64,000 bases of DNA, taken from Rubellicoccus peritrichatus. Lineage in GTDB: Bacteria > Verrucomicrobiota > Verrucomicrobiia > Opitutales > Cerasicoccaceae. The stretch covers positions 3,157,001-3,221,000 of the forward strand of contig NZ_CP136920.1 in the NCBI RefSeq assembly GCF_033100135.1. Reading direction: 5' to 3'. A program made the position numbers and the translations under genes. Below the pieces are notes generated by a model. It was not told the DNA's origin and did no database searches. It worked only from the letters and a program-made list of their open reading frames with translations. The stretch's first letter is position 1. Each line of letters starts with the position of its first letter. Of this stretch, positions 12,806 through 14,491 are shown in pieces.

Positions 12806-12977
12806 GAGTAAGAAGTAAGAAGGTGGAAGTGAGAAGGCAGAAGTCGGGAACGACCTTTTCTTTCTGTCAAATTTTACCTAATTGAAAAATACTTTTCTAA
12901 CTCCAAGTTGTTGATTACCATGCATTAAGCTTTGCCGTTTTGCCTCAGCCTTCTGACTTCTTCCTTCTCACTTCTAA
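12806..12977. repeat. Inverted arrangement of AGAAG/CTTCT-rich repeat
   Basis: The left copy (12806-12845: AAGAAGGTGGAAGTGAGAAGG and AAGAAGTC-type words) and the right copy (12944-12977: CTTCTGACTTCTTCC then TTCTCACTTC) are imperfect reverse complements flanking about 100 bp upstream of dnaX. Related CTTCT words recur at 23970-23990 and 40559-40592. This looks like a small dispersed intergenic element of the genome. It occupies the divergent tamB/dnaX promoter region, so promoters must lie close to or within it. Confidence 0.5.
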
Positions 12978-13008: not shown

Positions 13009-14166
13009 ATGTCCATCCCATTCATGGCAGAGGGGTATCAAGTCATAGCGCGCCGTTGGCGTCCCAAGCAGTTCGATGAGCTGGTGGGGCAGGAGCATAT
13101 TGTTCGCACGTTGAAGAATGCGATTGCGACTGATCGGATTGCGCATGCTTACCTGTTTGTTGGTCCACGTGGGACGGGAAAGACCACCACGGCTCGTATT
13201 TTTGCCAAGGCCTTGAATGCGGAAGGCGGTCCTAATGCGACTCCCGATGACTCCAGTGAAGTTGCCCAGGCAATCATGGATGGCTCATGCATGGATGTGA
13301 TCGAGATCGATGGTGCCAGTAACAATAGCGTCGACGATATCCGGTCTTTACGTGAAGAGTGTCAGTATTCCCCGTCGCAGTGCCAGTTTAAGGTCTACAT
13401 TATCGACGAGGTTCACATGCTTTCAAATAATGCATGGAATGCGCTTCTTAAGACACTGGAAGAACCTCCACCGCATGTGAAATTTATCTTTGCTACGACT
13501 GAGGCCCACAAGGTTCTGCCAACGGTGGTTTCACGTTGTCAGCGATTTGAGTTTCGTCCGATTCCCAACGATAAAATCGTTACCAAACTCAGTGAGATTG
13601 CCTCAGCCGATCAAATCGAGATTGATGCCGCCGCATTAAAGTCAGTTGCTCGTATGGCTGATGGTGGAATGCGGGATGCACAGAGCATTCTTGATCAGCT
13701 CATTTCTTTTTGCGGCAACAACATTTCCGAGAGTGATGTTCTTGATGTTTACGGTCTGGCGGCCGAGAGCACCTTGGAGGAGTTTGCTGGTGCGCTTGCC
13801 TCTGCCGATTACCAAAAGCTTTTTGCATTGATTGAGAGTATTGCCGGAGACGGGCGAGACCTTTATCGAGTTCTTCAGGATATCCAGTCTAAAATTCGTG
13901 GTTATCTCGTTGCTGCGATTCAGAATGGAGGACAAACCGAGGTCCAGGGTTCAAGTCTGACTGCAGAGGCCCTGACTCGCATGCTGGAGGCATTGCAGGC
14001 ATCTGAAAGTGCAGTTCGCCAGGGGCTTTCCCAACGTGTTAATTTCGAAGTCGCACTTCTAAGAGCTGTGGATCAAAGCCGCACACGCGCCATAGATTCC
14101 GTCATTACTCAACTAACGGCAATTGCAGCCGGCCTCCCCGAGGAAGCCGGCCAAAAAAAAATCTGA
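13009..14166 (+). CDS. dnaX: DNA polymerase III subunit gamma (short dnaX product)
   Basis: This is the AAA+ clamp-loader ATPase of the replicative polymerase. Motifs seen are Walker A GPRGTGKT (52-59), Walker [10 protein letters not shown] (130-138), [14 protein letters not shown] (141-154) and the SRC arginine-finger motif (175-177). The zinc module normally inserted after the ALN segment (four Cys) is replaced by a cysteine-poor stretch at 70-92, so no zinc is expected. An ATG at 13024 ([12 protein letters not shown]) is an alternative start closer to the family consensus. The zero frame ends at TGA 14164-14166 immediately after a run of nine adenines. The continuing frame encodes a further tail (next entries), so this is the truncated gamma-like product. 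Confidence 0.93.
14153..14161 (+). promoter_or_regulatory. A9 slippage site in dnaX
   Basis: Nine consecutive adenines lie 2 bases before the zero-frame stop codon. Loss of one A (or gain of two) during transcription, or a +1 ribosomal shift, places the ribosome in the frame that stays open to 14491. That yields a 493-residue protein instead of 385. A -1 shift would stop soon, at 14172-14174. Thermus thermophilus dnaX is the known precedent for transcriptional slippage on an A9 run giving tau and gamma. A sequencing error in the homopolymer is the main alternative. Confidence 0.6.
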
Positions 14167-14491
14167 ACCCGTAAGGCCACAAGCTCCGGCTGCACCTGTT
14201 TCCCAAGTTCAGGAGCGCAAAGAGCAAGGTGGACCAAGGCCCATTAGCGCGAAGTCTGAACCAAAGGCATCAGTAGCTGTTGAACAGTCGAAGTCAGATG
14301 TTTCCAAGGATGAGAAGAAGCCTACAGAGGATGAAGCCCCTGCGAAAACCAACTCGGGTACCACACGCAAATTCTTTCCGCGCTCAGAAGAGTTTGAAAA
14401 AGCGAAGCAATCGATTCCTGCCGAGACTCATAAGCGTTTGAGTGACCTGCTTCGGGCAGACTTTAAATATCTAGAAGAAATAGGCGAGTGA
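14162..14491 (+). CDS. dnaX: Second-frame C-terminal tail of dnaX (tau-like form)
   Basis: Downstream of the A9 run this frame encodes about 109 residues: a Pro/Ala/Lys/Glu-rich linker ([15 protein letters not shown] ...) and a compact end ([13 protein letters not shown] ... [17 protein letters not shown]). The layout resembles the flexible linker and C-terminal segment that distinguish tau from gamma. The only upstream in-frame start candidate is TTG 14123, inside the dnaX coding region and without a Shine-Dalgarno, so independent translation is unlikely. The tail ends 33 bp before the convergent recQ stop. It is best read as the 3' part of one gene expressed by frameshifting, or disrupted by an indel. 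Confidence 0.65.

Follow-up and report, generated by a model that had tools for sequence, protein, structure and literature searches.

The dnaX gene in the window (by which the whole 64,000-nucleotide stretch of DNA analyzed is meant) is split over two reading frames at a run of nine adenines, and the best reading of this arrangement, to which we assign a probability of roughly 0.8 on the basis of sequence comparisons, is that the gene makes both clamp-loader forms, gamma and tau, by RNA polymerase slippage at this tract. Across the order to which the genome belongs it is the tract, and not the frame, that is conserved, and the window represents one case of an arrangement found across that order.

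A dnaX gene in two frames

The initial annotation had described a dnaX gene divided by an A9 run, and the reading frames agree with this description: an ORF of 385 codons stops just past the tract, while the +1 frame stays open up to position 14491 (Table 1). The templated frame, which reads CAA AAA AAA ATC TGA across the tract, encodes gamma and not tau, and beyond the tract 1, 109 and 3 codons are open in frames 0, +1 and -1, respectively, near stops being present in both wrong frames. The open +1 frame, which had been noted as tau-like, consists of a charged, proline-containing linker followed by a conserved C-terminal segment. If the RNA lost one A (or gained two), the two frames would be joined into a product of 493 or 494 residues by hand count, in line with the 493 residues first predicted for a one-base loss.

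Table 1. Features of the dnaX locus, in positions of the window
Feature	Positions	Strand	Remarks
dnaX head / gamma ORF	13009..14166	+	385 aa, ends GQKKI-stop; ATG at 13009
A9 slippage tract (candidate)	14153..14161	+	boundary of gamma part and tau tail
TGA closing gamma in the templated frame	14164..14166	+	
TAA closing the -1 frame	14172..14174	+	RNA with one extra A would give a second gamma-like end, ...QKKNLNP-stop (hand translation)
tau-specific tail, +1 frame	14162..14491	+	109 codons plus stop

The head possesses the full ATPase, lid and collar of the DnaX (Pol III gamma/tau) family: it scores 425.9 bits against TIGR02397 dnaX_nterm (cut-off 250), and 146.7, 51.4 and 25.5 bits against PF13177, PF22608 and PF12169 (cut-offs 27, 27 and 24.4). 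The tail alone returned zero Pfam or NCBIfam family matches at E values up to 1. It is read as protein, because the differences between the tails of the window and of L005, the nearest relative examined, number 39, 41 and 64 at codon positions 1, 2 and 3 over 91 aligned codons, with a pS of 0.78, a value near saturation, against a pN of 0.45. The tail of the window is thus coding, in the shifted frame.

The same relative bears on the possibility that the split arose from a base-calling or assembly error in the homopolymer, the true gene being a single ORF, an alternative which the initial annotation had itself raised. The dnaX gene of L005, another species, is 85% identical to that of the window over the head and agrees with it in the A9, the TGA and the +1 frame of the tail, which makes a private sequencing error unlikely. 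Homopolymers are error-prone, and some of the single-genome frame flips in the survey described below (L013, L032, L120, L124 and L151) may be errors; however, splits are common to whole clades, and with 8 or 11 A's the window would still have the tract and an early stop in each of the wrong frames, but tau and gamma would trade roles. Taken as an explanation of the split, we regard such an error as quite improbable.

Tract, tail frame and near stops across the order

The survey comprises 102 dnaX genes of the order, i.e., that of the window, 79 others from a set of 88 genomes and 22 more from a set of 288 genomes. The 88-genome set, which includes the genome of the window, contains 80 genomes with a dnaX-level match, all of which were examined, four without a match, and four with only weak matches (E 2.9e-13 to 4.6e-5), which were left out, while all 22 further same-order genomes of the 288-genome set were taken in. 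A run of at least nine A's is located at the gamma/tau boundary in 91 of these 102 genes (A9 in 24, A10 in 64, A11 in two and A13 in one), and a tract of exactly A8 at this boundary was found in none of the 102. Outside the order but within the same phylum, four of 40 genes, hand-picked among the higher-scoring of 244 other genomes in the 288-genome set and thus not a random sample, carry the tract, in all four cases as A10 and with tau in frame.

Runs of this length are rare elsewhere. In the genome of the window (one contig of 5.8 Mb), 20 distinct stretches of at least nine A's were counted on both strands together; of the 19 other than the dnaX tract, nine lie in no stop-to-stop frame of more than 120 codons and ten lie in at least one, the longest such frame measuring 568 codons and running off the locus. 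No run of at least nine A's occurs in the heads of the 102 dnaX genes (103,254 nt), where the longest is A8, present three times, and the tails of 89 of the genes (36,228 nt) contain four A8 runs and a single A9. As 91 of 102 genes have such a run at this one site, compared to 20 runs genome-wide, none in the heads and one in the tails, the tract is not a product of chance.

Tail frames, defined as the longest open frame, were counted in 89 complete cases, the genes of L137 and L152, which are located at contig ends, being left out. The tail lies in frame 0 in 25, in frame +1 in 16 (including the window) and in frame -1 in 48 of these genes, and a C-terminal motif, approximately IPpetRelLeELFRAkF..V, is found in rows of all three frame classes, the commonest letters at its best columns being found in 54-69% of the 89 rows. 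Both non-tail frames are closed within 10 codons in 80 of the 89 genes, as against 9.3% of 7066 control positions inside tails. In the remaining nine, which count against slippage, one or both wrong frames run on past 10 codons; they include L005, whose -1 frame is open for 75 codons. A quick maximum-likelihood tree, computed from the heads without bootstrap, requires at least 12 changes of tail frame and at least 11 changes of tract length, and well-supported branches alone force six changes for frame 0, five for +1 and two for -1.

A separate observation concerns L151 and L152, members of one genus (g45) with closely related dnaX genes, which have A11 and A10, respectively, followed by the same twelve bases; judging from these sequences, of which that of L152 is cut by a contig end, the templated product seems to depend on a single A.

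The changes in tract length and frame class over evolution would also fit phase variation by replication slippage, whereby tract length would vary between cells and these would alternate between gamma-only and tau-making states. Against this, the tract is retained in the 25 relatives that have tau in frame, and each of their wrong frames is closed within 10 codons in 22-23 of the 25 (92% and 88%). A replicase subunit is, moreover, a poor candidate for on/off switching, and phase variation is judged very unlikely.

The least probable of the alternatives is that tau has been lost and the +1 frame is a relic, or that the run persists because it serves the convergent recQ-like gene as a T9 terminator. 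A terminator-like stem is indeed present on the minus strand at 14186-14165, downstream of the recQ-like gene, with the T9 complement of the tract next to it (to 14153) and a hairpin of -9.0 kcal/mol, although such terminator-like matches are equally common in shuffles (2 found, 2.2 expected). A dead tail is contradicted by the coding constraint and by the conserved C-terminal motif. As a general reason for the run, an antisense terminator was rejected: hairpins of -8 kcal/mol or better lie beside the tract in 25 of 89 genes of the order, close to the 22% of controls, and downstream genes point both ways, the longest downstream ORF having the same direction as dnaX in 50 of the 89, the opposite direction in 36 and an unclear one in three.

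The tract is lacking in 11 of the 102 genes, which also counts against slippage; nine of these belong to genomes of 1.3 Mb or less, and eight of the 11 form one weakly supported group with long branches in the quick tree. Three small-genome members without the tract have dnaX genes that are possibly of gamma-only or short-tau replicases: that of L205 stops after 371 residues, with no tail motif recognizable by eye in the three frames, while in L150 and L153 the ORFs measure 403 and 394 residues and include no more than a short end. L021, which has no A run and is sister to a clade with A10, has one ORF of 459 residues, with a C7 run near the site.

Among 80 named dnaX loci, the four Opitutae rows (L034-L037, named MAGs at 57-61% identity) are all split, the tail being in -1, a resemblance that would place the genome of the window near the Opitutaceae. 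At least nine A's occur in the region searched in seven of the other 76 named loci. These loci outside the Opitutae, with nine or ten A's close to the gamma/tau boundary, are L110, a Clostridia MAG with a split dnaX whose tail lies in -1, and L042, L051, L053, L055, L067 and L100, in all six of which tau is in frame and both other frames are closed within 9 codons.

Proposed slippage and ribosomal alternatives

According to the proposed mechanism, RNA polymerase would slip while copying the tract and thereby yield mRNAs with varied numbers of A's. Transcripts with 9 or 10 A's (and with any other number that is not 2 modulo 3) would be translated up to the TGA at 14164 or the TAA at 14172, giving gamma products of 385 or 388 residues with the ATPase, lid and collar domains, while on transcripts with 8, 11 or 14 A's ribosomes would enter the tail and make tau, of 493 residues or slightly more. 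What we infer is the slippage as such, the ratio of tau to gamma, and the synthesis of, and need for, both forms. Slippage is favored over a ribosomal shift in one direction because a run of at least nine A's is kept, tails occur in every frame, and both wrong frames mostly close soon after the tract; near stops in both wrong frames suit slippage by any number of A's. The heads of the 89 genes contain 916 AAG and 642 AAA codons for lysine, yet the tract is pure A. Mixed direction among orthologs has been used as a criterion for transcriptional realignment (Antonov 2013, PMC3711429), and the mixed tail frames of the order support slippage by that criterion. The genome also encodes tRNA-Lys(CUU) besides tRNA-Lys(UUU), and two tRNA-Lys species have been suggested as a reason why Thermus uses slippage and not ribosomal shifting (Atkins 2016, PMC5009743).

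The initial annotation had considered the geometry to fit either slippage or a +1 shift, as opposed to the -1 shift of E. coli. Its dismissal of the -1 shift as a source of tau is upheld, slippage is the better supported of its two options, and a +1 ribosomal shift is less likely, since tails of all three frames follow this tract, and a shift in one direction cannot serve them all. A ribosomal event at the tract could take the form of a programmed +1 (or -2) shift, or of free sliding of the ribosome on the A run, as ribosomes can do on poly(A) in E. coli systems; in the work of Koutmou et al. (PMC4363877), however, sliding was robust on A11 and little on A9 and A10, and 88 of the 91 tracts of the order are A9 or A10. 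In the window a GAGG (duplex -5.9 kcal/mol) precedes the tract by 10-13 nt, but it is absent in L005 (duplex -2.5 kcal/mol). Class +1 genes lean to downstream structure, their mean z (n=16) being -1.19, compared to +0.10 in control stretches, whereas the RNA downstream of the tract in the window itself is not unusually structured (z of +0.50 and +1.0 in two computations). A ribosomal origin of tau is, on balance, unlikely.

Less probable still, by a wide distance, is programmed -1 ribosomal frameshifting of the E. coli type on A_AAA_AAG/A. An all-A slippery heptamer is present, and the tail lies in -1 in 48 of the 89 relatives, which counts against slippage insofar as an E. coli-type shift could also serve these genes. 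In the window, however, a -1 shift ends at the TAA at 14172-14174, as had been predicted, and never reaches the tail, so that as a means of making tau it is excluded by the sequence as given; furthermore, none of the 91 tracts has fewer than nine A's, though seven would do, and the presence of tRNA-Lys(CUU) also argues against it. A -1 shift may add a gamma-like product in the window, and relatives of class -1 could use ribosomal shifting as well.

E. coli-type stimulators were rejected as a general element. Shine-Dalgarno duplexes of -6 kcal/mol or better accompany 28, 6 and 25% of the genes of classes 0, +1 and -1, compared to 15, 9 and 14% in head controls, and downstream z values under -2 are found in 12, 25 and 8%, compared to 4, 0 and 0% in controls. 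There is, therefore, a modest Shine-Dalgarno excess in classes 0 and -1 and a structure excess in class +1, with no element common to all members; the excess, which weighs against slippage, could reflect added aids or chance.

A bolder extension of the slippage reading, which is tentative and which we would place somewhat below an even chance, is that very strong slippage yields similar amounts of all three registers, so that the encoded tail frame hardly matters. Selection would then act to keep the tract and an early stop in either wrong frame, and the frame would drift with each A gained or lost by the tract. If so, the order would represent a clade in which the exchange of product roles by one base recurs, and does so in all three frames.

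Known systems, significance and an upstream repeat

Larsen 2000 is reportedly the original paper on slippage in the dnaX gene of Thermus thermophilus, for which transcriptional slippage on an A9 tract is established (PMC1088944, PMC5009743). The window resembles Thermus in that an A9 run separates the gamma part from the tau tail, near stops are present in the wrong frames and there are two tRNA-Lys species. The Thermus-like A9 slippage to both forms suggested by the initial annotation remains the best-supported reading of the sequence, although its polarity would be reversed: Thermus templates tau and obtains gamma from slipped RNA, whereas the window templates gamma and would require slipped RNA for tau.

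In E. coli, dnaX employs a -1 ribosomal frameshift on A_AAA_AAG with a Shine-Dalgarno sequence and a stem-loop. The gene, its two products and an A-rich site are the same, but the tail of the window lies in the opposite direction, the window shows no unusual downstream structure and all 91 tracts contain at least nine A's. A class closer in arrangement was reported by Antonov 2013 (PMC3711429), namely 17 two-ORF dnaX genes from 12 genera, nine of them with A10, in which slippage was proposed; the text counts four Verrucomicrobia genomes. Here too gamma is templated, the tail ORF lies in another frame at poly-A, recoding is needed for tau and transcriptional realignment is the mechanism put forward; however, those 17 genes are -1 transitions at the DNA level, as are 48 of the 89 members of the order, whereas the tail of the window is in +1. 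Slipped RNA is likewise needed for the long product of Shigella mxiE and of IS transposases (PMC1088944), which are unrelated genes, the present one encoding a replication subunit. It has also been pointed out, with dnaX named, that the two products can trade places through the change of one nucleotide, provided that the transition is close to 50% (Atkins 2016, PMC5009743), a general remark which, where it is made, involves no clade of real genes and no three-frame case.

Thermus-type slippage, two-ORF dnaX genes with a -1 transition and the idea of role exchange by one base are thus already in print. What would be new is the proposed production of tau from slipped RNA in the +1 direction, in an order that mostly keeps the tract but not the frame: neither a +1 case nor an order using all three frames was found in literature searches on dnaX slippage or realignment, including in Verrucomicrobiota, and some members of the order may already be listed in the supplement of Antonov 2013.

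If the bolder reading is correct, these genomes contain a replication gene with a long-lived slippage site, whose products would be independent of the genomic reading frame, and the tau:gamma ratio should be similar among species, whether tau is encoded in frame 0, +1 or -1. Such a system would bear on the role of gamma, which is debated (PMC5009743). A warning to annotators also follows, as 64 of the 89 dnaX genes of the order look truncated in the templated frame.

Just upstream of dnaX, an inverted pair of GAAGTGAGAAGGNAGAAGTC is located at 12826-12845 and 12955-12974, 109 nt apart. With up to 2 mismatches this sequence occurs at 48 sites in the genome, compared to none for the reversed control, several of the sites lying close together on opposite strands, and it is perhaps a dispersed MITE- or REP-like repeat.
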